A DNA stretch of 64,000 nucleotides from Candidatus Nitrospira kreftii. GTDB lineage: Bacteria > Nitrospirota > Nitrospiria > Nitrospirales > Nitrospiraceae. Location: NCBI GenBank assembly GCA_014058405.1, contig CP047423.1:2170001-2234000 (forward strand), written 5' to 3'. This document shows positions 15,253 to 58,327 of this stretch, in pieces. Each line of letters starts with the position of its first letter. The first letter of the stretch is position 1. The translations under genes were made by a program, and so were the position numbers. Below the pieces are notes generated by a model, which saw only the letters and a program-made list of their open reading frames with translations, did not search any database and was not told where the DNA came from.

Positions 15253-15639
15253 ATGCCTGATTCTTTACAATCCCTGCTCTGGCATGCCGTCGCCGTACTC
15301 ATTGTCGTCGGCGCCACATTGGGCTTGTCCTACATTCTCGGGGAACGACACCGGAGCCCAGGCACATTCGAACCCTATGAGTCGGGCATCGCTCCGACCG
15401 GCTCAAGTCGATTCCCGATCCCGATTCAGTTTTATCTGGTCGCCATGCTGTTCGTCGTTTTCGATCTGGAGGCGGCCTTTGTTTTTGCTTGGGCGCTGGT
15501 TGTGCGAGAGGCGGGATGGCCGGCGTTCTGGGAGATGACGCTCTTTATCAGTGTCTTGCTCATCGCGCTCATCTATGTGTGGCGCGTCGGAGCCCTGGAC
15601 TGGAGGGATGATGCACCGCCAAGACGAATCACCCGATAA
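15253..15639 (+). CDS. nuoA: NADH-quinone oxidoreductase subunit A
   Basis: 128 aa small membrane subunit of complex I with three helices (about residues 8-28, 66-88 and 95-115). The conserved loop reads [38 protein letters not shown], which is diagnostic (the Cys of the usual YECG is Ser here). First gene of nuoA-N. A nine-codon TTG-started reading frame (15231-15260) with GAGGGAAGGA in front of it ends across the nuoA start and could couple its translation; this is weak evidence. nuoB overlaps the end of this gene. Confidence 0.95.
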
Positions 15640-16327
15640 CACGATGGGCAGGGAGGAGAATCAGACTGTTCACGGAACAGTCCCGAGTCGCATTCGTCTG
15701 CGCGAAGCGGACGGGATTGAGGAGACGGTGCGCCGTTCGGTCGTCCTGGCAAGCCTGCAAGATCTCGTCGCCTGGGGACGGAAACACTCCCTTTGGCCGT
15801 TCAACTTCGGGCTGTCCTGCTGCTACATCGAAATGGCGACGAGCCTGACCAGCCGGTACGATATCGCGCGCTTCGGCTCGGAAGTCGTCAGGGGAACACC
15901 TCGAGAGGCCGACGTCATCGTCATCGCAGGCACAGTGTTCCGCAAAATGGCCCCCATCATCAAACGATTGTACGATCAAATGATGGAGCCGCGCTGGGTC
16001 ATCTCGATGGGATCCTGCGCCAACTCGGGCGGGATGTATGACGTGTATTCCGTCGTTCAAGGAGTGGATAAGTTTCTTCCGGTCGATGTGTACGTCCCGG
16101 GGTGCCCGCCGGCGCCGCATACGCTGATGGAGGGTCTGTTGCTCTTGCAACAGGCCGTCGGCAGCGAACGACGGCCGCTGAGCTGGGTGCTTGGTCCCGA
16201 GCAAATCGAGCGCCCGACCTTGCCGGCCCGTCGAGACCTCGCCAGAGAGTTCCGGCAACGAGCACGGACATTTCCCAGCATGGATACGGTGGCCTGGTAT
16301 TCAAATCACGATCAGGGGACACGATGA
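15611..16327 (+). CDS. nuoB: NADH-quinone oxidoreductase subunit B
   Basis: 238 aa peripheral subunit that carries the terminal iron-sulfur cluster N2. The ligands are visible: the tandem Cys pair in LSCCYIEMA, the Cys of [12 protein letters not shown] and the Cys of VPGCPPAPH. The start is uncertain. ATG at 15608 and 15611 lie 1 and 4 bases after GGAGG (15602-15606), so 15611 is preferred; a further ATG at 15644 lacks a ribosome binding site. The gene overlaps nuoA by 29 bp. The N-terminal 35 residues and the C-terminal 60 residues are poorly conserved extensions. The stop overlaps the nuoCD start as ATGA. Confidence 0.94.
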
Positions 16328-18072
16328 TACAGGATCTACCGATAGTCAACGAACTGCGCCTGAAGTTCGGAACGCATGGCGCTCAGGTCGAGGGGACACA
16401 GGACGGCGTTCCGACCATCTGGGCGGAGAAAGCCTCCGTGCTTCCCCTGCTTCGCTATCTCAAACAGGACGCGGAACAGCCCTACCCGATGCTGTTCGAT
16501 ATGACCGCGATCGACGAGCGAAACCGAAAGACCCGTCCGATGGAAGCGTCGAACGACTTTACGGTCACCTACCAGTTGTTTTCGTTCATTCGCAATCAGG
16601 ATCTTCGTGTGAAAGTCGGTCTCTCCTCGGACGATCTCGCGCTCCCATCCGCCACATCGGTCTGGCCCTCAGCCAATTGGTATGAACGGGAGGTCTGGGA
16701 CATGTTCGGGATCAGGTTCAACGGGCATCCGCATCTGCGTCGACTGTTGATGCCGAAATCCTGGGAAGGACATCCTCTCAGAAAGGATCATCCGGCGCGA
16801 GCGACCGAGATGACACCGTTCGAGCTCACCGACGAGGATGCAGAAACCGAGCAGGACCTGCTGCAATTCAATCCGGACGATTGGGGCATGCAGCGGAAGG
16901 ACGACCACGTCGAGTACATGTTCCTCAATTTGGGTCCGGCGCATACCGGCACTCACGGAATACTCCGTCTCGTGGTACAGCTCGCCGGTGAACAGATCGT
17001 CGACATCGTGCCGGACATCGGGTTTCACCATCGCGCGGCGGAAAAAATGGGCGAACGCCAAACCTGGCACACCTATATCCCGTACACGGATCGAATCGAT
17101 TATCTTGGGGGGGTCATGAACGAGCTCCCCTACCTCCTCGCCGTCGAGCGGCTCGCCGGCATCCGCGTGCCGGCTCGGGCTGAGGTCATCCGGGTCATGC
17201 TCGCGGAACTGTTTCGGATCGCGAGTCACTTGGTCTGGTACGGCACCTTCGCTCAGGATGTGGGACAGCTGTCGCCGGTCTTTTACATGTTCACGGACCG
17301 CGAGCGGATCTTTCGCATCATCGAGGCGATTACCGGCGGGCGCATGCATCCGGGCTGGTTCCGCATCGGAGGAGTGGCCCACGACCTGCCGGTGGGATGG
17401 ACCCATCTTGTCCGTGAATTCCTGGAGTACTTGCCGTCTCGATTGAGCGAATATGATGATCTCGTTCTACGCAACCCTATTTTTCAGGCGCGGACCAAGG
17501 GCGTCGGTCGCTACTCCACCCAAGAAGCCATCGACTGGGGGGTGACCGGTCCCGGCCTCCGCGCCACCGGATTCAGCTGGGATTTTCGGAAAACCCAGCC
17601 CTATTCCGGTTATGAACAATTCGACTTTGACGTGCCGACGGCGGTCAATGGAGACTGCTACGACCGTGGCCTCGTGCGAGTCGAGGAAATGCGACAAAGT
17701 CTCCGCATCATCAGACAATGCCTGGAGCACATGCCGGAAGGACCGACAAAAGCCGACCACCCGCTCGCGACTCCGCCGAACAAGGATCGAACGCTGCAGG
17801 ACATCGAAACCCTCATTCATCACTTTCTTGCCGTCAGCTGGGGCCCTGTGATTCCTGCGGGTGAGGTCATGGCGAAGGTCGAGGCCACGAAGGGATGCAA
17901 CGCGTACTACTTGATCAGCGATGGAGCGCCCTGGCCGTATCGAGTCCGTATCCGCACCCCGTCGTTCCCGCATATCCAAATGGTCCCGTTGATCGCTAAG
18001 GGACATTTACTGGCGGATCTCTTGGCCATCTTGGGGAGCGTGGATTTTGTCCTGGCGGATGTAGACCGGTAG
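16324..18072 (+). CDS. nuoCD: NADH-quinone oxidoreductase subunits C and D, fused
   Basis: 582 aa. Residues 1 to about 180 are the 30-kDa NuoC domain ([19 protein letters not shown] and [11 protein letters not shown]). From about 195 is the 49-kDa NuoD domain ([33 protein letters not shown], the [16 protein letters not shown] stretch and the C-terminal FVLADVDR). NuoD forms part of the quinone site together with NuoB. The fusion is as in E. coli. The ATG at 16324 overlaps the nuoB stop by 4 bp. Longer in-frame extensions to 16102 lie inside nuoB and are not part of the gene. Confidence 0.96.
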
Positions 18073-18118
18073 CGGAAGGCACAAGACACGGCATCTGATG
18101 TTCACGAACGGGTGACCG

Positions 18119-18613
18119 ATGAGCAGAGACGAACACATCCGACCGGTATTGACGGAGGAAGAGAAGGGAATGATCGACGAGGAATTGTCTCACTACCCCA
18201 CTAAACGGGCCGGCGGGGTCGAGGCGTTAAAAATCGTGCAGCGCCGTCGGGGGTGGATCTCCGACGAGCTGTTGCTGGCGATAGCGCAACACGTGGGAAT
18301 GGCACCCGCCGAGCTGGATCGTTCGGCGACTTTCTATAACCTCATCTTCCGACGACCGGTCGGTCGGCATGTGGTACTTGTCTGCGACAGCGTGTCCTGT
18401 TGGATCATGGGCGCGGACCGCCTCAGAAATCGGCTTCGGCACCGGTTAGGCATCGAAGCCGGCGAGACTACGCCCGACGGCCGCTTCACCATGCTGCCGA
18501 ATGTCTGTTTGGGAGCCTGTGATCGTGCGCCGGCGGTGATGATCGATGAGACATTGCATGGACCCTTGACGGAGGATGAACTGGACCGACTCCTGGACTC
18601 GCATGTTCCGTGA
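18119..18613 (+). CDS. nuoE: NADH-quinone oxidoreductase subunit E
   Basis: 164 aa, 24-kDa thioredoxin-fold subunit of the NADH-oxidising arm. The four cysteines for the N1a [2Fe-2S] cluster are seen in VCDSVSCWIMG and NVCLGACDRAP. The helical N-terminal half has the usual ALKIVQRRRGWISDELL pattern. A 46-bp gap follows nuoCD, the longest inside the operon. nuoF starts 8 bases after the stop. Confidence 0.95.
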   Translation: MSRDEHIRPVLTEEEKGMIDEELSHYPTKRAGGVEALKIVQRRRGWISDELLLAIAQHVGMAPAELDRSATFYNLIFRRPVGRHVVLVCDSVSCWIMGADRLRNRLRHRLGIEAGETTPDGRFTMLPNVCLGACDRAPAVMIDETLHGPLTEDELDRLLDSHVP

Positions 18614-18621
18614 GAATTCCT

Positions 18622-19920
18622 ATGAACGATGACCGACCGTTAACAGGACAGATTCGTCGCCACGGCCCGCCGCCGACCCTCTCGGAATACGAGGATCTCG
18701 GTGGATACACATCGGTCCGCACGATGCTGCCCCACATGACACCGGAGGACGTCCAGCAAGAAGTCACGAATTCCAACCTACGTGGGCGCGGAGGTGCCGG
18801 GTTTCCTACCGGCCAAAAATGGAGCTTCGTCCCGATGGGAGCCGATGCGCCTCGTCCCAAATATCTCGTGGTCAACGCCGACGAGATGGAGCCGGGAAGT
18901 TTTAAAGATCGCCTGCTGCTCGAAGGTCATCCCCATCGCTTGATCGAAGGCATCATTATCGCGGCCTATGCCATTCAAGCCGAGTGTGCCTATGTGTTCG
19001 TGCGCTGGGCCTATCATCCGTCCGTGCATGCGCTCAGGCGAGCCATCCGTGAAGCACGCGAGGCGGGACTCCTCGGCCATAACCTTCTCGGCTCGGGTTT
19101 CAGCCTGACGGTCCATGTCCACACCAGCGCGGGGCGATACATCTGCGGAGAAGAAACTGCGCTCTTGAACGCATTGGAAGGACATCCGGTCATCCCTCGC
19201 GCCAAACCACCCTATCCGCAAGTCTGCGGCCTCTGGGGAAAGCCGACCATCGTGCAGAACGTGGAAACCCTCTGCAACCTTCCTCACATCCTCGCCCATG
19301 GCGCGGAATGGTTCAGAAATCTGGGAAAGGGCAAGGACGCGGGAACCAAGCTCTACGCCGTCAGCGGGCGGGTGAAACAGCCTGGTGTCTGGGAACTGCC
19401 GATCGGAACATCGATGCGCGAGATTCTCGAGAATCATGCCGGGGGAATGCAGGAAGGCTATGCCTTTCGCGCCATGCAACCGGGAGGAGGATCGACCGGA
19501 TTTCTCACCGAGGACCATCTGGATTTGGCGATGGACTTTGATTCGCTGTCGTCGGTCGGAAGCCGTCTCGGCACAGGGACTGCGATCGTCTTGGACGATC
19601 GCACCTGCCCCGTCGGCATGGTTCAAAACCTGGAGCACTTTTTTGCCCAAGAATCCTGTGGTTGGTGCACCCCCTGTCGAGACGGCTTGCCCTGGGTCGA
19701 GCGCCTCCTTGCCGACATCGAGAATGGAAACGGACGCCCACAGGATATGGACATCCTCGAGCGCCATGTGACGTTCTTAGGCCCCGGGAAAACCTATTGC
19801 GCGCATGCGCCCGGAGCGATGGAACCCCTGAAAACCGCGCTCCGGCATTTTCGTTCGGACTTCGACCGGCACATTCACGACCAGCATTGTCCGTGGAAAT
19901 CCCACGGGGCGGAGGCCTGA
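18622..19920 (+). CDS. nuoF: NADH-quinone oxidoreductase subunit F
   Basis: 432 aa from the ATG at 18622; a GTG at 18610 overlapping the nuoE stop is possible. This subunit holds the NADH and FMN sites: GRGGAGFPTGQKWSF and the following NADEMEPGSFKDR, and the Gly-rich GAYICGEE-like AGRYICGEETALL. The N3 [4Fe-4S] cluster ligands are SCGWCTPCRDG and the later Cys in GKTYCAHAPG. Its presence, with NuoE and NuoG, shows that this complex I has the full NADH module. In an autotrophic nitrite oxidiser such a complex could run in reverse to make NADH; that is inference. Confidence 0.96.
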   Translation: MNDDRPLTGQIRRHGPPPTLSEYEDLGGYTSVRTMLPHMTPEDVQQEVTNSNLRGRGGAGFPTGQKWSFVPMGADAPRPKYLVVNADEMEPGSFKDRLLLEGHPHRLIEGIIIAAYAIQAECAYVFVRWAYHPSVHALRRAIREAREAGLLGHNLLGSGFSLTVHVHTSAGRYICGEETALLNALEGHPVIPRAKPPYPQVCGLWGKPTIVQNVETLCNLPHILAHGAEWFRNLGKGKDAGTKLYAVSGRVKQPGVWELPIGTSMREILENHAGGMQEGYAFRAMQPGGGSTGFLTEDHLDLAMDFDSLSSVGSRLGTGTAIVLDDRTCPVGMVQNLEHFFAQESCGWCTPCRDGLPWVERLLADIENGNGRPQDMDILERHVTFLGPGKTYCAHAPGAMEPLKTALRHFRSDFDRHIHDQHCPWKSHGAEA

Positions 19921-19926
19921 TCACAA

Positions 19927-22680
19927 GTGACCAAGGACAACACACATTCCATTACGATCCACGTCGATGGGCGATCCGTTCAGGCGGATCCTCAGCACAA
20001 CCTCTTGGAGAGCTGTCTCTCGCTGGGCTTCGATCTCCCGTACTTTTGCTGGCATCCCGCCATGGGCTCAGTCGGCGCCTGTCGGCAATGCGCGGTGAAA
20101 CAATTCAAGGACGAATCCGACGAGGCCGGACGGATCGTGATGGCCTGCATGACTCCCTCGACGGAGGGAGCGCACATCTCCATCGAAGACCCTGAGGCGC
20201 AGGCATTCCGCGCGAGCGTGGTCGAATGGCTGATGTTGAATCATCCCCATGATTGTCCGGTCTGCGACGAGGGCGGTGAATGCCATCTCCAGGACATGAC
20301 CGTCATGACGGGCCATGTGACTCGGCGTTACCGAGAATCAAAACGAACCTATCGCAATCAGTACCTGGGACCATTCGTCACTCATGAGATGAACCGGTGT
20401 ATACAGTGTTACCGCTGTGTTCGATTCTACCGCGATATCGCCGGCGGGGAAGATCTGAATGCATTCGGTTCGCGCGATCGGCTGTATTTCGGCCGGATGG
20501 AAGACGGCACGCTCGAAAGCGCATTCAGCGGCAACTTGGTGGAGGTCTGCCCGACCGGCGTCTTTACGGATAAAACCCTCTCCCGCCATTACTCAAGAAA
20601 ATGGGACATGCAGAGTACCCCGTCGATCTGCAGTCACTGTAGCCTAGGATGCAACGTGCATCTGTCTGAGCGAGCCGGGATCATGCGAAGGGTGTCCAAT
20701 CGATACCACAGCCGCATCAACGGGTATTTCTTATGCGACCGCGGCCGATTCGGATATGAATACGTCAATCATCCTCGTCGACTGCGTCGTCCGGCAGTCC
20801 GTACATCACGAGAGAACGCCGCCCCCTTGATCCCGCTCTCACCCGCTGAGGCGCTTGCACAACTGGGTGCGCGCCTGGATGAACACAAACGAATCGTCGG
20901 CATCGGTTCGCCCAGGGCGTCGCTTGAGTCCAACTACGCGTTGAGAACGCTGGTCGGCAGCGCGCATTTCTTCAGCGGAATGTCCGAGACCGAACACCAC
21001 CATGCGTCGCTGATCCTCCGAGTGCTCAAAGACGGACCCGCTCCGAGCTGGTCCGTTCAAGAAGTCGAACAGGCGGATGCGGCCCTGATCTTGGGTGAAG
21101 ACCTGGTGCATACCGCGCCTCGACTCGCGCTGGCGCTGCGCCAGTCGGTGCGCAACCAGCCGATGGAACAACTCGAGGGACTGAAGATTCCCCGTTGGCA
21201 AGATGCCGCCGTGCGCACCGCGTTGCATGATCAGAGGGGACCCCTGTACATCGGAGCCGTCGCCGGCACGTCTCTCGATGACGTGGCCACGCGAACGTTT
21301 CGTGGGACACCCCACGACCTCGCCCGACTGGGATGCGCCGTGGCGCATGAGATTTGTCCGGACTCACCGAACCCCTCTGAGCTCTCGCTCAGCGAAGCCG
21401 ATCTGATCCGTGAAATCGCCGAAGCGCTGGCTTCGGCGAAGCGCCCGGTTGTGGTGGCAGGCACCGGAACGGGGGACGCATGGGTCATCAAAGCCGCCGC
21501 GAACGTGGCCTGGGCCTTGCGCCGCAGAGGTGTGGCGGCCGGCATCGCTTTCGCCCTTCAGGACTGTAATTCGCTGGGCATTGCCCTGCTCGACGGGAAG
21601 AGTCTCGGTGAAACGGCTGCGACCGGAGCCGATCAGAGTCGCGATGCGTTGATCATCCTGGAGAACGATCTACGCCGTCGTCTGGAGACGGCGACCCTCG
21701 ACCGTTGGCTGGAGCGGTTCGATCCGGTGATCGTGATCGATCATGTCGATGAGGCCGTTCCCGATCAAGCCGATTTCGTCCTCCCCGCTTCCTCCATCGC
21801 GTGCAGCGACGGAACGCTCGTGAATAATGAGGGCTGCGCCCAACGGTTTTTCTCCGCCATGCCGAAAGAGCCGGAGGTCGAGGATAGTTGGCGGTGGGTA
21901 TGCGACATCGCTCGACGCGCATCGCGGAATTCCTTCGAACGGATGTCGAATTGGAACCACCTCGAAGATATTCACACCGCGATCGCCGGGGAATTCCCGC
22001 TCTTACGCCGCATCGGAGAAACGGCCCCGCCCGCGCCGTTCAGGATCTCGGACCAGAAAATTCCACGCGCTCCTCATCGGTTCAGCGGGCGCACCGCGCT
22101 TCCCATGCTCGAGACGATCCATGAGCCTCAGCCGCCCGATGACCCTGAAAGCCCATTGGCGTTTTCGATGGAAGGAACACCGGAACACCCCCCCTCCCCG
22201 CTCATTCCATTCTTCTGGTCCTCTCGCTGGAACTCCAGCGAAGCAGTCAACAAGTTTCAAGATGAAGTCGGCGGACCGCTCCGCAACGAGAACACCGGCA
22301 TCAGATTATTCGAGGCGCAATCCCATGCGGAGATCCCGTTCTTCGAGAATGCGCCCGCTCCTAGCAATAGCCGGAACAATCAACTGCTCCTCGTGCCGCT
22401 TCCCCGCTTGTTCGGCACGGAAGAATTGAGCGCTCGAGGTTCCGCAATCCGCGAACGGACTCCGCAGGCTGCCGTCGTGCTCAATCCCCGAGACGCCGAT
22501 CGACTCGGTGTGCGGAAGGGTCACGCCGTCGACATGACGGCGCCGGGTCTCGCGCGCCGCCTCCCGGTCGAGACGGACGAGACCATGGCCGGTGGCATCG
22601 CCGGACTCCTTCTCGTCGGGGACGGAGCCTACGTCACGCTTCCTGCGTGGGTGACGCTGAGAAAGGCACCGTCCACATGA
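19927..22680 (+). CDS. nuoG: NADH-quinone oxidoreductase subunit G
   Basis: 917 aa with a GTG start at 19927, 6 bases after nuoF. The N-terminal ferredoxin domain carries the cysteines of [21 protein letters not shown]. Next come [16 protein letters not shown] and the [4Fe-4S] ligands of [13 protein letters not shown] and [11 protein letters not shown], then the N7-type [12 protein letters not shown] motif of the molybdopterin-oxidoreductase-like domain. The C-terminal third (from about residue 700) is Pro-rich and weakly conserved. The iron-sulfur chain links FMN in NuoF to NuoI and NuoB. Length is normal for bacterial NuoG with the N7 cluster. The stop overlaps the nuoH start as ATGA. Confidence 0.95.
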
Positions 22681-23630
22681 AAGAGGTGCCGTTCATCATG
22701 CTCCTTTTAGGATCGCTCCTCACGATCAGTGCGCTCCTCATCTGGGTGGAGCGGAGGCTCTTGGGACGGTGGCAAGAACGCTACGGCCCCAATCGTGTTG
22801 GGCCCGGGGGAATTCTGCAAACGGCGGCGGATGTCATCAAACTTTTCACGAAGGAGGATTGGATTCCTCCTTTTGCCGACAAAACAGTGTTCATTTTGGC
22901 GCCGGCCGTGGTGGTGTCCGCCGTACTGTTGTCGTTCGCCGTCGTGCCCTTCGGACCTTCGCTGGTCGTAGCCGACCTCAACATCGGCGTCTTGTTCCTG
23001 TTGGCGCTGTCGTCGTTGAGCGCCTACAGTATCGTCCTGGCGGGGTGGGCATCGAACAGCAAGTACGCGATGATCGGTGGACTGCGCGGAGCGGCCCAGA
23101 TGTTCAGTTATGAAGTCTATATGGGGCTTTCCCTCATGGGGGTCGTCATGCTTGCCGGGTCGTTTCGGTTACGGGACATCGTGGAGGCCCAGCAGGATCT
23201 CTGGTTCTGCATTCCACAATTCCTCGGAGTCGGAATTTTTTTCATCGCGGCCTTGGCGGAGACACACCGTCTCCCGTTCGATATTCCCGAGGCCGAAGCG
23301 GAACTCGTCGCAGGTTACCACACGGAATATTCAGGCATGAAATTCGGTCTGTTTTTTCTCGGAGAATACCTCGGCATCGTGCTGATGTCGTCGCTCATCG
23401 TGATCCTTTTCTTCGGCGGATGGCACGGCCCGTGGTTGCCGCCGTTCGTCTGGTTTGGGGTAAAGACGGTCGTGGTCATGATGCTGTTCCTCCTCATGCG
23501 GGCGACGCTGCCGAGGCCTCGCTTCGACCAGTTGATTGCGTTCGGATGGACGATCATGTTGCCGGCGACATTGATCAATCTCCTCGTGACGGCCGCCCTC
23601 ATTCTCATGTACCGACCCGACGCGTCGTGA
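22677..23630 (+). CDS. nuoH: NADH-quinone oxidoreductase subunit H
   Basis: 317 aa membrane subunit with eight predicted helices that forms the mouth of the quinone channel. Signatures are [19 protein letters not shown] near the N-terminus and the acidic loop [19 protein letters not shown]. The ATG at 22677 overlaps the nuoG stop by 4 bp; an in-frame ATG at 22647 lies within nuoG. Length is typical. Confidence 0.96.
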
Positions 23631-23644
23631 AAAGGGAAACGTGG

Positions 23645-24169
23645 ATGACACTGCTGATACCCAGCCTGAAAGCGATGTGGCGAGTGTTCGCGCGGCTGTT
23701 CAAGCGGCCCGTGACGATTCAATATCCGGATCAGCCTCTCCCCGTTTCTTCACGATGGCGCGGGCGCATCATCCTGTCACGTGATCCGGACGGCGAAGAA
23801 CGATGCGTCGGCTGCTACCTCTGCTCCGTGGCCTGTCCGGTGGATTGCATCGCGCTTCAGGCGACGGAGGATGCGCATGGTCGCCGGTATCCGGAATGGT
23901 TTCGCATCAATTTTTCACGGTGCATTTTTTGCGGCTATTGCGAAGAGGCTTGTCCGACCTATGCGATCCAACTCATCCAGGATTTTGAGATGAGCGAGTA
24001 TCGGCGAACGAGTCTCGTGTATGAAAAGGACGACCTGTTGATCTCCGGGACCGGCAAGTATCCCGAGTATAACTTCTACCGGGTCGCCGGCGTCGCGATC
24101 AGCGGCAAGGACAAAGGCGAGGCGCAACGTGAACACCCGCCGGTGGATGTTCGGAGTCTGCTGCCATGA
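23645..24169 (+). CDS. nuoI: NADH-quinone oxidoreductase subunit I
   Basis: 174 aa. Two [4Fe-4S] ferredoxin motifs are seen: [16 protein letters not shown] (about residues 57-72) and [16 protein letters not shown] (about 96-111), the clusters N6a and N6b. The N-terminal [23 protein letters not shown] matches the membrane-anchoring helix region. The ATG at 23645 is 14 bases after the nuoH stop. The longer ORF that begins at 23420 lies inside nuoH. The stop overlaps nuoJ. Confidence 0.96.
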
Positions 24170-24669
24170 TGGTGTTGTTCTATCTTTCAGCCTCCGTGGC
24201 GGTCTTGGCTACTCTGCTGTTCGTCGTCTCGCCCAATGCCGTCCATGCATTGCTGAACCTGATCGTCTCGTTCGTCGCAATTGCGTTGATCCTACTCCTG
24301 TTGGGCGCTCCTTTCGCCGCCGCCTTGGAGATCATCATCTATGCCGGCGCCATTATGGTGTTGTTCGTGTTTCTGATCATGATGCTGCACGTGGGTCCCA
24401 CGTCGGTGGAGCAGGAACGCCGCCTGCTGGGAGTTCGCATCTGGTGGGGACCTGCGGTGCTCGCTCTAATTCTTGTGGCGGAGGTGGGGTTCCTGATCGT
24501 CACGGGAGCGGTCACCGCTGAATCCGGACCTCGTCCGATTGACCCCCAGGAGGTCGGCCTTGTGCTGCTCGGTCCCTATGTCGTGGGTGTGGAGCTGGCC
24601 TCCATCCTCCTGCTACCAGGAATTCTCGGGGCCTATTATCTCGGACGGCGTCGGAGGGAGGGGTCATGA
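24166..24669 (+). CDS. nuoJ: NADH-quinone oxidoreductase subunit J
   Basis: 167 aa, five hydrophobic helices. The conserved TM3 stretch [20 protein letters not shown], which contains the pi-bulge glycine region that moves during coupling, is clear at about residues 55-74. The start overlaps the nuoI stop and the stop overlaps the nuoK start, each as ATGA. Confidence 0.95.
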
Positions 24670-24974
24670 GCGGCTCGCTGGTGGTGCATACCATGATGTT
24701 GGCCGGAATTCTCTTCGCCCTCGGCCTGATCGGTTTCCTCGCGCGGCGCAATCTGTTGTTCATGTTGATGTCGGTAGAAATTATGCTCAACGCCGCAGGT
24801 CTCGGGTTCATCGCAGCCGGTGCCCGATGGGGACAGGCTGATGGGCACGTCATGTTTCTGTTCATTCTGACGCTGGCTGCGGCGGAAGTGCCCGTCGCGC
24901 TCGCGCTGGTGCTGCAGGTGCATCGCCGAATCCGTACCCTGGACGCCGATGCCGTTACACTGATGGCGGGATAA
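24666..24974 (+). CDS. nuoK: NADH-quinone oxidoreductase subunit K
   Basis: 102 aa with three helices. The conserved membrane glutamates in [20 protein letters not shown] (TM2) and [16 protein letters not shown] (TM3) are present; these are on the proton path of complex I. Length is standard. The gene lies 2 bp before nuoL. Confidence 0.95.
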
Positions 24975-24976
24975 TC

Positions 24977-27010
24977 ATGCTCGACTGGTTCTGGACGATT
25001 CCAGCTGTGCCTCTGGCCGGATTTCTCATCCTGACGCTCGGCCCATCGTTGTCTCGCGCGATCGTCTCCTGGATTGCGCTCGGGACATCGGCGCTGACCG
25101 CCGGGCTGGCGGCCTCCCTCGCCGTCACGCTCCAGCATCAGGGATTTCATCCCATGGGACAGACACAGGTCCTCTGGACATGGATGGATCTCGACGGGTT
25201 CACCCCGAGGATAGCCCTGTACGCCGACGCGCTGTCGATGACGATGGTCCTGATCATCACCGGGGTCGGAGTCCTTGTCCAGCTCTACGCGACGGAGTAC
25301 ATGTCCGACGACTCCGATTACCAGCGGTTTTTTGCCTACATGGGCCTGTTCATCGGCGCCATGCTCCTGCTGGTGCTGGCGGATAATTTGCTTCTGCTCT
25401 TTCTCGGTTGGGAAGGCGTGGGTCTGTGCAGTTATCTCTTGATCGGGTTCTGGTATCGCGATCTGCTCAACGGACTGGCGGCTCGAAAAGCGTTCATCGT
25501 GAACAGGATCGGTGATACAGCCATGATCGTCGGCCTCTGTATGTTGTTTACCGAGTTGGGAACGCTGGAGATTCAAGCGATGCTCCGGCAGGCGTCACTG
25601 CAGTGGACGATCGGCCATCCGATGGCGGTCGCAGCCACCGCACTTCTGCTGGGCGCCGCCGTCGGCAAATCCGCGCAGATTCCGCTGCAGGTGTGGTTGC
25701 CGGATGCGATGGCCGGACCCACACCGGTCAGCGCGCTGATTCATTCCGCCACCATGGTGACGGCCGGGGTGTATTTGATCGCGAGGACCCAGACGCTCTT
25801 CGCCCTTGCGCCGGCCACACAAACGGCCATCGTCGTCATCGGAACGACGACGATGCTGTTCGCCGCTTCAAGCGCGCTGGTTCAACGGGATATCAAACGC
25901 ATCTTCGCGTACTCCACCATCAGCCAACTGGGCTACATGTTCATAGCCCTGGGAGTCGGCGCGGCTGGAACGGCGATCTTTCATCTCTTGACCCACGCCT
26001 GTTTCAAGGCGCTCCTGTTCCTGGTGGCCGGAGCGCTCATGTTCAGCCTTCATCATGAAAAGGACCTGTTCAACATGGGAGGGCTACGACGGGATCTTCC
26101 TCTTATCTTCTGGGCGGCCGTCATCGGAGTCGCCTCGCTGTCTGGCCTTCCTTTCATCACGGCGGGATTTTTCAGCAAGGACCAGATCCTCCTCCAGGCC
26201 TGGCGTTCGCCGAGCGGAAGTCCATGGTTGCTGGCCGCCGGCTTACTCGGCAGTGTATTGACCGCCCTCTACAGTTTCCGAGTGGTGTTCTTGGCGTTCT
26301 TCGGCGACAAGCACAGCGAGGTCACACGATCTCCGGGATGGAGGATGACCGTTCCGATGGGGGTATTGGCCGCCTTATCCATCGGCGTCGGTTGGCTCGG
26401 GTGGTCCGCGCGGGCAGAGGAGCCTTCCTGGTTCCTTCGGCTGATGGACACCGCCATGCCGGTGCACCGACCGGATCCCGTCACCGAGGCGCAGGCCGGC
26501 ACGATCGCGCTCCTGGCTTCGGGCGCCGCGTTGCTGGGGATGGGTTTAGCCTATCTGATGTACATGCATCGACCGGCGATCCTCGAAGCCGTAGGTGAGA
26601 CGGAAACTGTTCAGACGATCCGGCGGTTCCTGCTTCGTGAATGGGGGTTCAATTGGGTCTACCGCTGGACGATCAAAAAGCCATTCGGGTTTTTTGCTCG
26701 GGCGGCAAAAAGTGATTTCGTGGAGCAAACATATGATCGGTTGTTGGTTCGGCCTTTTCTCCTCCTAGCTGGTTCAGCCAAAGGCGACATCGTCGATCAA
26801 GGCTATGACCGTTTGATCATGCGTCCCTTTCTTTGGATCGCCGATATCAACCGAAACGATGTGCTGGATCGTGTCTATGGAGGACTCATCCGGTTGGTCG
26901 AACAATCCGCCGTCGCGGCCGGTCGACTGCAGACCGGTCACGTACGATGGTATGCCACGGTCTTGGTTGCCGGCGCCCTCGGCCTGGCGGGATTCGCGGT
27001 GTTCACATGA
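24977..27010 (+). CDS. nuoL: NADH-quinone oxidoreductase subunit L, with repeated lateral-helix segment
   Basis: 677 aa antiporter-like subunit at the distal end of the membrane arm. The core holds the usual FFAYMGLFIGAMLLLVLADN, FLGWEGVGLCSYLLIGFW, the proton-relay glutamate and lysines, and VGKSAQIPLQVWLPDAMAGPTPVSALIHSATMV. The protein is about 60 residues longer than E. coli NuoL (613 aa). The extra length lies in the C-terminal lateral-helix region, where residues 568-639 form three consecutive 24-residue repeats (see the repeat entry). A final transmembrane helix follows (about 652-675). nuoM overlaps the stop by 4 bp. Confidence 0.95.
   Translation: MLDWFWTIPAVPLAGFLILTLGPSLSRAIVSWIALGTSALTAGLAASLAVTLQHQGFHPMGQTQVLWTWMDLDGFTPRIALYADALSMTMVLIITGVGVLVQLYATEYMSDDSDYQRFFAYMGLFIGAMLLLVLADNLLLLFLGWEGVGLCSYLLIGFWYRDLLNGLAARKAFIVNRIGDTAMIVGLCMLFTELGTLEIQAMLRQASLQWTIGHPMAVAATALLLGAAVGKSAQIPLQVWLPDAMAGPTPVSALIHSATMVTAGVYLIARTQTLFALAPATQTAIVVIGTTTMLFAASSALVQRDIKRIFAYSTISQLGYMFIALGVGAAGTAIFHLLTHACFKALLFLVAGALMFSLHHEKDLFNMGGLRRDLPLIFWAAVIGVASLSGLPFITAGFFSKDQILLQAWRSPSGSPWLLAAGLLGSVLTALYSFRVVFLAFFGDKHSEVTRSPGWRMTVPMGVLAALSIGVGWLGWSARAEEPSWFLRLMDTAMPVHRPDPVTEAQAGTIALLASGAALLGMGLAYLMYMHRPAILEAVGETETVQTIRRFLLREWGFNWVYRWTIKKPFGFFARAAKSDFVEQTYDRLLVRPFLLLAGSAKGDIVDQGYDRLIMRPFLWIADINRNDVLDRVYGGLIRLVEQSAVAAGRLQTGHVRWYATVLVAGALGLAGFAVFT
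26678..26893 (+). repeat. three tandem 24-residue repeats inside nuoL
   Basis: Three contiguous units of 72 bp each (26678-26749, 26750-26821, 26822-26893), NuoL residues 568-591, 592-615 and 616-639. Each unit begins [KR]PF, has Asp at position 13, a hydrophobic-Val/Leu-Asp/Glu stretch at 14-16, Tyr at 19 and a hydrophobic end. Units 1 and 2 share YDRL at 19-22, while unit 3 is more diverged (YGGL). The DNA is diverged between units, so the duplication is old and kept at protein level. Confidence 0.85.
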
Positions 27011-28563
27011 TCTTGCTCGTATTGATTGCACTGCTGATGCTCGGCGGCCTCATCGCATGGGTTTCAGAACGGGCCGGATCAAACTGGCCCCGCTGGATCA
27101 CCCTCGGAACCACAGTCGTCGGTCTCTGCGCGATCGGGGCCGATACGATTCCTCAATTGATCGGTCAGGCGGAACTGCCGTCGAATCCATGGCTACGGGA
27201 ATATGATGTGCCGTGGATCCCGCGTTTCGGCATCGGCCTTCATCTGGCGATGGACGGCCTGGGATTTGTGCTCATCGTCCTGACGCTCATACTCGGGATC
27301 GTCGCCGTCATCGCGTCCTGGACGGAAATCACGACCGGCATCGGATTTTTTCACTTCAATCTGCTCTGGGTGTTAGCCGGGATCGCGGGGGTGTTCCTTG
27401 CGATGGACCTGTTTCTGTTCTTCGTCTTTTGGGAATTGATGCTGGTGCCGATGTACCTCCTCATCAGTCTCTGGGGCCATGAGCGCCGATCGTATGCCGC
27501 GACGAAATTTTTTCTCTTCACGCAGGCCGGCGGGTTGCTGATGTTGATCTCGATTCTTGCGCTCTCAGTCGTGCATTACCGCCAGACCGGCATTGCGACG
27601 TTCGATTATTCCGCTCTGCTGGGGACGTCGCTTCCTCCGGAGACGGAGTTTTGGCTGATGTTGGGATTTTTCGCCGCATTTGCGGTGAAGCTGCCGGTGG
27701 TCCCGTTGCATCCATGGCTGCCCGATGCCCATACCGAAGCACCGACCGGAGGCAGTATCATCCTCGCCGGACTGTTGTTGAAAACCGGCGCCTACGGCCT
27801 CTTGCGGTTTGCCATCCCCCTCTTCCCCAATGCTTCGGAAACGTTCGCGATCGTGGCCATGACGCTGGGCGTGGTGGGAATTCTCTATGGCGCGCTGTTG
27901 GCGTTCTCGCAGACCGACTTCAAACGGCTCGTGGCCTACAGCAGCGTCGCTCACCTTGGGTTTGTCCTGCTCGGGATCTACAGCGGCAATCTGCACGCGC
28001 GACAAGGAGCGATCATGGCGATGGTCGCTCACGGTCTCAGCACGGGAGCGCTGTTCATGATCGCCGGGCTCCTGCAGGAACGCCTCCATACGCGCGATCT
28101 GAGACGCATGGGCGGATTATGGCCTGTCGTTCCCAAATTGAGCGGGGTGACGCTCGTGTTCTCAATGGCATCCCTCGGCATCCCGGGCCTGGCAAACTTC
28201 ATCGGAGAGTTCCTCGTCTTGCTGGGCACCTATCGCGTCAATATTCCTCTGGCGATTCTTGCGACGATCGGTGTCGTGGGAGCCGCGCTGTATTCGTTGA
28301 TCCTCATTCAGCGGGCTTTTCACGGGGAGAACACCGAAGGCTGGAAGGTGCCGGATCTCGGCGGAGCCCAGTTCACTACCCTCGGCGCGATGATCCTATT
28401 GAGCCTGACACTCGGGCTCTACCCGCAGCCTCTTCTCAATGCTGCGCAGCCTGCGATTGCGCGGGTCCAAACATGGGGGTCCCCGCCCGCCACCGAGGAC
28501 ACGCCCGCCGTCCTCGAGCATGACGCCTCGGGCGTCGCCACTCCCGCGCCGCCGGGTCGATGA
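27007..28563 (+). CDS. nuoM: NADH-quinone oxidoreductase subunit M
   Basis: 518 aa antiporter-like proton-pumping subunit. Signatures are FFVFWELMLVPMYLLISLWG with the key Glu, and FAVKLPVVPLHPWLPDAHTEAPTGGSIILAG with the relay lysine. The ATG at 27007 overlaps nuoL by 4 bp; the longer ORF from 26833 lies inside nuoL. The C-terminal 25 residues are Pro/Ala-rich and not conserved. Only one nuoM is present in this operon. Confidence 0.95.
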   Translation: MILLVLIALLMLGGLIAWVSERAGSNWPRWITLGTTVVGLCAIGADTIPQLIGQAELPSNPWLREYDVPWIPRFGIGLHLAMDGLGFVLIVLTLILGIVAVIASWTEITTGIGFFHFNLLWVLAGIAGVFLAMDLFLFFVFWELMLVPMYLLISLWGHERRSYAATKFFLFTQAGGLLMLISILALSVVHYRQTGIATFDYSALLGTSLPPETEFWLMLGFFAAFAVKLPVVPLHPWLPDAHTEAPTGGSIILAGLLLKTGAYGLLRFAIPLFPNASETFAIVAMTLGVVGILYGALLAFSQTDFKRLVAYSSVAHLGFVLLGIYSGNLHARQGAIMAMVAHGLSTGALFMIAGLLQERLHTRDLRRMGGLWPVVPKLSGVTLVFSMASLGIPGLANFIGEFLVLLGTYRVNIPLAILATIGVVGAALYSLILIQRAFHGENTEGWKVPDLGGAQFTTLGAMILLSLTLGLYPQPLLNAAQPAIARVQTWGSPPATEDTPAVLEHDASGVATPAPPGR

Positions 28564-30023
28564 TCATGACTCTGGACAACTTCATCGCGTTGCTGCCCGC
28601 TCTCATTCTTGCGGCCGGCGCGCTCGGCATCATGTTGTTAGCCGCGTGGAACCGCCCTCACGGCATGGTGAGTCGGACGGCGGCGATCGTGCAAGCGTCG
28701 GCGTTCGCGGGCGTGCCCCTCGCTTCGGCCGTGGTTCCCAGACAGGCCACTGCTCTCCTACTGGTGGATGAATTCGCGCTCTTCTATATTGCGCTCATTC
28801 TCCTCGGCGGCATAGCGGTGACTGTCCTCTCCCACGGCTATCTCGACGCCAAGCTGGACCGGTGCAATGAATACTATTCGTTGCTCTTGCTCGCCTCTTT
28901 GGGAGGCGTGGTGCTGGCGATGTCCGTTCATGCAGCCTCTTTTTTTTTAGGTCTGGAATTGCTGAGCGTGTCCCTCTACACGCTCCTTTCGTATGATCGA
29001 GAGAATCCACGCGCGCTGGAAGCCGGAGTCAAGTACCTGCTTCTTTCGGCTGTCGCTTCGGCGTTCCTCCTTTTGGGATTGGCATTGCTCTACTTTCTCA
29101 CCGGCGAGCTGACTTTTTCGGCCCTGCGCCAGGCGCTGGCCGATGACGGGCCCAGTCGCACGGTGGGCCTGGCCGGTCTGGCTCTGATTCTTACCGGCAT
29201 CGGATTTAAGCTGGCGGTGGTGCCCTTTCATATGTGGGCGCCCGACGTCTATCAGGGTTCCCCGACGCCGGTAACCGCATTCGTGGCGACGCTGTCGAAA
29301 ATCGCCGTGGTCGCGCTGCTCCTCCGGGCCTTGTTCCACATGGGCGCGTTGAACGATACGGCTGTGACCGCCGCCCTCAGCGTCTTGGCGGTGGCGTCCA
29401 TGTTCGCGGGAAACTTGTTGGCGCTGCTCCAAGACAATGTGAAGCGCCTGCTGGCCTATTCCTCGATCGCGCACCTTGGATACTTGCTTGTGGCCGTCAT
29501 TGCGGGCGGCGCGCTGGGAGCGGAAGCAGTCGGCTTTTATGTCGCTGCCTACATGGTGACGATGCTCGGCATCTTCGGGGTTCTGATTCTTTTGTCAAGG
29601 CCCTACGTCGAGACCGAACGCATGGAGGATCTCCGAGGATTGATGTGGCGAGATCCTCCCGCCGGGGCGATCTGGGTCATCGCCGTGTTATCCCTGGCCG
29701 GTGTGCCGCTGACGGCCGGTTTCGTCATCAAGTTCTATGTGGTCGTGGCAGGCCTCTCGAGCGATCGATGGCTGTTGGTGCTCTTCTTCGTCCTAAACAG
29801 CGTGATCGGGCTCTTCTATTACCTCAAATTGATCCGCGTCGCTTTGGCGAGAGAGTCCGAATCCTCCGCAAGACAGCGACAAGCGGTTGTCCCGAGGTGG
29901 ACCTGGTCCAATGGGCTCGTGATGGCAACGCTCATTCTCGCCATCGTCTGGTTGGGCGTCTATCCCATTCCCTTTATCAACTGGATTGAGCAGACGACGA
30001 CGGTCTTGGTGGCTGCCGACTAA
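28560..30023 (+). CDS. nuoN: NADH-quinone oxidoreductase subunit N
   Basis: 487 aa antiporter-like subunit and last gene of the operon. FFLGLELLSVSLYTLLSYDR carries the conserved Glu, followed by GIGFKLAVVPFHMWAPDVYQGSPTPVTAFVATLSK with the relay lysines. The ATG at 28560 overlaps the nuoM stop; a second ATG at 28566 is equally possible. No clear terminator follows. The transaldolase-family gene starts 208 bp downstream. Confidence 0.95.
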   Translation: MIMTLDNFIALLPALILAAGALGIMLLAAWNRPHGMVSRTAAIVQASAFAGVPLASAVVPRQATALLLVDEFALFYIALILLGGIAVTVLSHGYLDAKLDRCNEYYSLLLLASLGGVVLAMSVHAASFFLGLELLSVSLYTLLSYDRENPRALEAGVKYLLLSAVASAFLLLGLALLYFLTGELTFSALRQALADDGPSRTVGLAGLALILTGIGFKLAVVPFHMWAPDVYQGSPTPVTAFVATLSKIAVVALLLRALFHMGALNDTAVTAALSVLAVASMFAGNLLALLQDNVKRLLAYSSIAHLGYLLVAVIAGGALGAEAVGFYVAAYMVTMLGIFGVLILLSRPYVETERMEDLRGLMWRDPPAGAIWVIAVLSLAGVPLTAGFVIKFYVVVAGLSSDRWLLVLFFVLNSVIGLFYYLKLIRVALARESESSARQRQAVVPRWTWSNGLVMATLILAIVWLGVYPIPFINWIEQTTTVLVAAD

Positions 30024-57800: not shown

Positions 57801-57805
57801 GTCCT

Positions 57806-57875
57806 ATCCCTAGCCTTTAGAGGTCTTCTTAGATCCGGATATCCCTAGCCTTTAGAGGTCTTCTTAGATCCGGAT
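57806..57875. repeat. 35-bp perfect tandem duplication at the 3' end of the hemerythrin gene
   Basis: Two adjacent identical 35-bp units, 57806-57840 and 57841-57875. The right copy contains the last nine codons (SGSKKTSKG) and stop of the hemerythrin gene; the left copy repeats them downstream. Identical copies mean a recent event. Confidence 0.95.
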
Positions 57876-58327
57876 AATTTTGCGATCAGGGTGTCCCGAC
57901 GCTTCATCACAGCCCTTTCAAGCGATTCCCAATCGATATCGCTCTCTTGGGCCTTTGGCAATATCTCCCCTTCCTCTTCCTCAATATGGTGTTTCACCAG
58001 CTCGCCCAGCACCTTAAATTTGGCTTGGAACACCTCGTCCTTGGGTTTCAGCTTCTTCAATTCTTTAATGAGGACATGGACAAGATGGTGTTCTTCCACC
58101 GCCTCGTTCATCATCTCATCATCGTCGATTTGCTCACGAATCGCTGGGTAGATGAGCTTCTCTTCCAGGTCGGCGTGGACTTCGAGCTCCATGATGGCAG
58201 TCGCTGCAATGTCCCCCTGCTGTTTTTGCTCAGCGGACTCGAACTCTTCGAACAGACCTTTAACTTTCTCATGATCCTCTTTCAACATCTCTACGACACC
58301 GGTCGCCACTTCTGCTTTACTTGTCAT
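57845..58327 (-). CDS. hemerythrin HHE cation-binding domain protein
   Basis: 160 aa with a strong ribosome binding site (GGGGAGGG). Iron-ligand residues are spaced as in the HHE family: H19 (LKEDHEKVK), H51 with E55 (LEVHADLEEKLIYP), H80/H81/H84 (EEHHLVHVLI) and H113/H114 with the following acidic run (VKHHIEEEEGEILP). The four-helix bundle should hold a di-iron site that binds oxygen or senses it, often linked to oxidative or nitrosative stress. The C-terminus is Lys/Ser-rich. A one-mismatch CTAG motif lies 124 bp upstream. Confidence 0.9.
   Translation of the reverse strand: MTSKAEVATGVVEMLKEDHEKVKGLFEEFESAEQKQQGDIAATAIMELEVHADLEEKLIYPAIREQIDDDEMMNEAVEEHHLVHVLIKELKKLKPKDEVFQAKFKVLGELVKHHIEEEEGEILPKAQESDIDWESLERAVMKRRDTLIAKLSGSKKTSKG

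Follow-up and report, generated by a model that had tools for sequence, protein, structure and literature searches.

Lengthened lateral helices in complex I

The lateral helix (HL) of NuoL is a strap across the antiporter-like subunits of complex I, and whether it serves as coupling rod, strap or ruler has been argued over ever since membrane-arm structures first appeared. 2M complex I is already known to have a lengthened HL (Chadwick et al. 2018, ISME J, as described in PMC9040806 and PMC6606698). HL inserts have also been called curious in Complex_I_1 and Complex_I_2 of 'Ca. Manganitrophaceae', for which extra pumping subunits were not noted (PMC9040806). The 64,000-nucleotide stretch of 'Candidatus Nitrospira kreftii' analysed here (the window) encodes a complex I in which the strap helix is doubled by whole 24-residue copies, as if for extra pump modules; the cluster encodes the usual three. 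The window complex resembles 2M complex I in that HL is longer by about one antiporter-subunit step (+25 residues there, +24 per unit here), and window NuoL, at +48, has gained two such steps. 2M operons have a second nuoM and belong to the separate-CD set, whereas the window operon has one nuoM and a fused CD. Because the defining second NuoM was looked for in the operon and is absent, the system is classed under canonical fused-CD complex I, as a variant, and not under 2M, although the canonical class has an HL of two 24-residue units and the window HL has 96 residues in four units.

Three further systems are close. The 'Ca. Manganitrophaceae' complexes likewise have an HL insertion without noted extra pumps and come from the same phylum, but their insert is of a 26-residue kind for which no unit repeat is described (PMC9040806); this description sets them apart from the extended NuoLs here, with +24 or +48 by visible unit duplication. 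E. coli NuoL (PDB 3rko, 7z7s) shares the fold, the anchors and the unit motif and has two HL units against four in the window. Other Nitrospira fused-CD complexes (e.g., L073 of N. moscoviensis and L050 of genome G031) share the operon order and contain the nearest two-unit NuoLs in the tree, but their HL spans 47-48 residues against 96. The window HL is a clearly modular, new variant of the lengthened HL. In the literature on HL inserts, as represented by papers that cite Chadwick et al. (2018), we found no lengthening by exact 24-residue units, no HL of 96 residues and no sister species that differ in unit number while their subunit set stays constant; all three are apparently new to that literature.

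The repeat array in NuoL

The gene and its C-terminal elements are as follows.

24977..27010, + strand: nuoL, 677 aa, subunit L of fused-CD complex I (translation, homology with E. coli NuoL)
26642..26929, + strand: lateral helix HL, W556-L651, four 24-residue units where two are normal (anchored alignment of 80 NuoLs)
26642..26713, + strand: HL unit 0, residues 556-579, WGFNWVYRWTIKKPFGFFARAAKS, first canonical unit (alignment register)
26714..26785, + strand: HL unit 1, residues 580-603, DFVEQTYDRLLVRPFLLLAGSAKG, extra, missing from the three-unit gene of ACE_NIT12 (alignment register)
26786..26857, + strand: HL unit 2, residues 604-627, DIVDQGYDRLIMRPFLWIADINRN, extra relative to two-unit genes (alignment register)
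26858..26929, + strand: HL unit 3, residues 628-651, DVLDRVYGGLIRLVEQSAVAAGRL, last canonical unit (alignment register)
26942..27004, + strand: TM16, predicted helix 656-676, after HL (AlphaFold2)

An earlier note on this DNA described three 24-residue units at NuoL residues 568-639 (window 26678-26893), which read in translation KPFGFFARAAKSDFVEQTYDRLLV / RPFLLLAGSAKGDIVDQGYDRLIM / RPFLWIADINRNDVLDRVYGGLIR. These coordinates and the period stand, but the full periodic array comprises four units and runs over 556-651, as it also takes in residues 556-579 and what follows D628. In the frame of the three units, [KR]PF opens each and Tyr occupies position 19 (586, 610, 634) as had been reported; the D-x-V-[DE] motif is present in the first two, whereas the third has D-V-L-D. 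The excess over E. coli NuoL, put at about 60 residues, is 64 (677 versus 613), but only 48 of these form the HL insertion. The repeats are real and far above chance, with a best ungapped self-match of NuoL at lag 24 and a BLOSUM62 score of 113 against a shuffle maximum of 44-45 (C-terminus or whole protein). Tandem Repeats Finder shows no DNA-level tandem repeat at the HL locus, and a DNA-level repeat was rejected on this ground in favour of an old protein repeat; at DNA level the two middle units have 56% identity, which also indicates an old duplication.

The lateral helix across homologues

HL span was measured between the conserved anchors WG[FM][DN] and Q[TN]GxxRWY in window NuoL and 79 others. 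It is 48 residues in 56 of these 80 proteins, 47 in 20, 72 in two (L056 of Nitrospira ACE_NIT12 and L060 of NPIRA01) and 96 in two (window NuoL and L057 of Nitrospira ACE_NIT10); L208, from the same family as NPIRA01, is a fifth extended gene and again spans 72. In the alignment with the 79 other NuoLs, the length change is restricted to HL, between the anchors, and to judge from these spans HL is lengthened only in whole 24-residue steps. In the two units of two-unit genes, D occupies unit position 3 in 56/56 and 48/56 and Y occupies position 6 in 55/56 and 36/56, and D542 and N566 of E. coli NuoL are 24 residues apart. By this register the normal fused-CD HL is itself two 24-residue units, which the earlier note missed. 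Its reading is otherwise supported. The repeats lie within the lateral helix, since E. coli W539-N566 aligns with window W556-E583 (D542, K551, P552 and the P564 kink corresponding to N559, K568, P569 and F581) and the insertion falls between conserved anchors; a segment of this length is absent from ordinary bacterial NuoL (76/80 have two units); and the repeat count varies among Nitrospirota, with two, three or four units even in close Nitrospira. The extra units resemble the last canonical unit in their N-terminal half (D-x-[IV]-[DE]-x-x-Y) and the first canonical unit in their C-terminal half (RPF, A, K), a hybrid composition that would be expected from duplication of a 72-bp stretch across a unit boundary.

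The 47-residue span, found mostly in Nitrospira (e.g., L073, L067, L104), has VRPW in place of VRPF in the aligned sequences displayed, and it is the sole HL length in the 80 NuoLs that is not a multiple of 24. A match in genome G121 with wider coverage of the HL query proved to be a two-unit gene.

The best solved relative of window NuoL is E. coli NuoL (E 1.4e-137), on which the window model superposes in Foldseek with a TMt of 0.86, and the TM15-HL-TM16 fold is present (Foldseek and AlphaFold2 elements). AlphaFold2, run on a 64-sequence alignment of window NuoL, predicts four successive HL helices (558-577, 582-598, 605-624 and 629-651) followed by TM16, and two HL helices (558-576 and 581-602) in the two-unit control L059. 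Prediction of the C-terminal helix, suggested earlier as a check, thus yields four helices in HL, but pLDDT is low there (about 36-45 across residues 561-610, the first two units) and the structural effect is still inferred. Only the pattern of one helix per unit is used from the model because of this low HL confidence.

Operon and antiporter-like gene inventory

The remaining genes of the operon are as follows.

15253..24974, + strand: nuoA, B, CD (fused), E, F, G, H, I, J and K (ORFs, same order in homologous loci)
27007..28563, + strand: nuoM, 518 aa, the operon's only nuoM, overlapping nuoL by 4 bp (ORF, homology, normal length)
28560..30023, + strand: nuoN, 487 aa (ORF, homology)

The operon is complete (nuoA-B-CD-E-F-G-H-I-J-K-L-M-N), with fused nuoCD and single L, M and N. 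All extended operons have one L, one M and one N; no extra antiporter-like gene occurs in any of them, and their NuoM, N, H, J and K have no matching insertions and are of unchanged length. By cluster position, no orphan complex-I-type nuoM was found in the window genome, ACE_NIT12, ACE_NIT10 or NPIRA01. The window genome (4.13 Mb, single contig), to which Nitrospira MAGs are the nearest relatives among named collections, has two more complex I clusters, one canonical (3.427-3.442 Mb) and one 2M with two nuoM (4.024-4.037 Mb). A hidden extra pump was rejected because all 15 Proton_antipo_M genes of this genome are accounted for by the three complex I clusters, a NuoL/H/N/CD/B-like cluster (142-150 kb) and NuoL-like genes (3.88 Mb). 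The NuoL/H/N/CD/B-like cluster (L054, G000:C1 142629-147129) lies outside complex I and is possibly related to membrane-bound hydrogenase; two adjacent NuoL-like genes outside complex I (L055, G000:C1 3881807-3886092) are possibly DabB-like. Apparent double nuoM genes in L103 and L135 are short or split ORFs, probably frameshifts, and not 2M.

The 2M complex I of the same genome (L047, G000:C1 4023880-4030005; L, M1, M2, N), with a NuoL HL longer by 25 residues, served as calibration. In separate-CD Nitrospirota complexes, wherever the distance from the first-unit D to Q was measured, it came to 49 in operons with one NuoM and 74 in those with two, which puts the strap length per NuoM at about 25 residues; the same segments are visible in the remaining 2M helices. 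Window NuoL measures 93 from D to Q and normal fused-CD genes give 45, a difference of two steps, and the extended fused-CD NuoLs carry their +24 or +48 HL residues alongside a single nuoM. This matching +25 extension, which accompanies the second NuoM in 2M complex I, had also been missed earlier. Duplication of the same 24-residue unit is unsupported for the 2M insert, in which no internal repeat was detected.

Distribution, history and selection

Within Nitrospira, unit number is four in the window and ACE_NIT10, three in ACE_NIT12 and two in the others; the NuoLs of the window, ACE_NIT10 and ACE_NIT12 are 83-85% identical outside HL. No further extended NuoL was found in 79 Nitrospira genomes or in a search of 396 Nitrospirota genomes, although the family of NPIRA01 gave L208. 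In a small sample from other phyla, no extended HL was found in 11 detectable Pseudomonadota genes and five Acidobacteriota genes. A NuoL tree built without HL columns unites the five extended NuoLs (bootstrap 90, SH-aLRT 93), a deeper grouping that is likely only, because the branches are long. In the Nitrospira trio, one HL unit was probably lost in ACE_NIT12, since its three-unit gene pairs with that of four-unit ACE_NIT10 while the four-unit window gene branches outside (98/95). The HL units, extra ones included, are under purifying selection, with a dN/dS of 0.17 for HL against 0.14 for the part of NuoL before it. A record titled uncultured Nitrosospira sp. isolate CMX (L130) is probably mislabelled because its NuoL is nested among those of Nitrospira in the tree.

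Possible roles of the added units

The account that we tentatively favour is that HL was lengthened by tandem duplication of its own 24-residue segment, which may give room for extra antiporter-like subunits. In its favour are the lengthening in whole 24-residue steps, the recurrence of D and Y at this spacing even in two-unit genes, the purifying selection on the extra units, the one predicted helix per unit, the loss of pumping in E. coli after insertions at P552 and the match with the +25 step of 2M complexes. Its structural and evolutionary part, a segment duplication in the strap helix that gives four units in place of two, is held with high confidence, and an extra-docking function of the added units is quite possible, if doubtful. 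Each HL segment is predicted to form one helix of about 20 residues that starts near D-x-[IVL]-[DE]-x-x-Y, a position that in E. coli is the kink touching NuoM. P552 of E. coli NuoL is part of a regular helix situated between NuoL and NuoM, and L565 and N566, beside the P564 kink, are the residues closest to NuoM (PMC3274701). The NuoM-contact motif (E. coli D563-P-L-N566) occurs three times in window NuoL, as D580-FVE, D604-IVD and D628-VLD. Since HL straps the antiporter-like subunits, each extra segment should add one antiporter-subunit-sized docking step, and the four-unit HL would carry extra docking positions of that size. The membrane arm would then have space for more antiporter-like subunits, either further NuoM copies or a recruited paralogue, as in 2M; the docking sites would be filled most simply by more than one copy of the operon's own NuoM or by such a paralogue. 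Extra docking has against it the lack of an extra antiporter gene and of insertions in NuoM, N, H, J and K, the low confidence of the HL model and the insertions tolerated in E. coli. We know of no complex I that contains one nuoM product in several copies. A self-closing two-helix hairpin of the extra units is argued against by the one-unit insertions (L056, L060, L208).

A tolerated expansion, in which units bulge at natural kinks with no effect on pump number or coupling and unequal recombination alters their count, is rather unlikely. It would suit the difference in unit number between sister species, with the probable loss in ACE_NIT12, the fact that E. coli largely withstands flexible insertions in HL at G532 or P564 (PMC3274701), and the scant transcription of the fused-CD copy CI_3 of N. 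moscoviensis (PMC6606698), which may not be of this lineage. All four units are, however, under purifying selection, and the exact 24-residue quantisation is found in an old clade. Moreover, insertion of 6-7 residues after P552 strongly cuts pumping in E. coli, where much complex remains with 22-27% relative pumping efficiency (PMC3274701), so that an insertion of 48 residues in nature is probably not neutral. An extension of HL heelwards, past NuoN over NuoK/J/A/H, would re-anchor TM16 and brace the quinone-site end with three pumps as usual; 48 helix residues would add roughly 70 A (1.5 A per residue), HL is conserved and predicted helical, and extra pump genes were not found. This is nonetheless unlikely, as TM16 and the QTGxVRWYA leading into it show the same conservation as in two-unit genes, suggesting the usual anchoring site, and NuoH, J and K have no new length features. 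Repeats can be mis-assembled, but an assembly or sequencing artefact can practically be discounted: the genome is a single contig with an intact ORF, units of only 56% DNA identity would not confuse an assembler, and independent assemblies already refute it, since ACE_NIT10 has an orthologue with four units and three others have genes with three.

Extra docking has a stricter form, in which HL acts as a molecular ruler: each antiporter-like subunit other than NuoL takes up one 24-residue unit, and one nuoM gives two or three NuoM (L-M-M-M-N). We consider this improbable; if it were true, NuoL repeat number and not gene content would set pump number, and hence protons per electron. More generally, either the assembled arm holds more pumps than there are genes for in the operon, or pump number does not depend on HL length. 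Should the complex contain additional NuoM copies, its proton stoichiometry in these Nitrospira would be altered without a trace in gene counts. Homologous complexes with two, three and four equal HL segments and an otherwise unchanged subunit set offer a natural test of the role of HL.

Elsewhere in the window, a 35-bp direct repeat occurs in two exact copies at 57805-57876.
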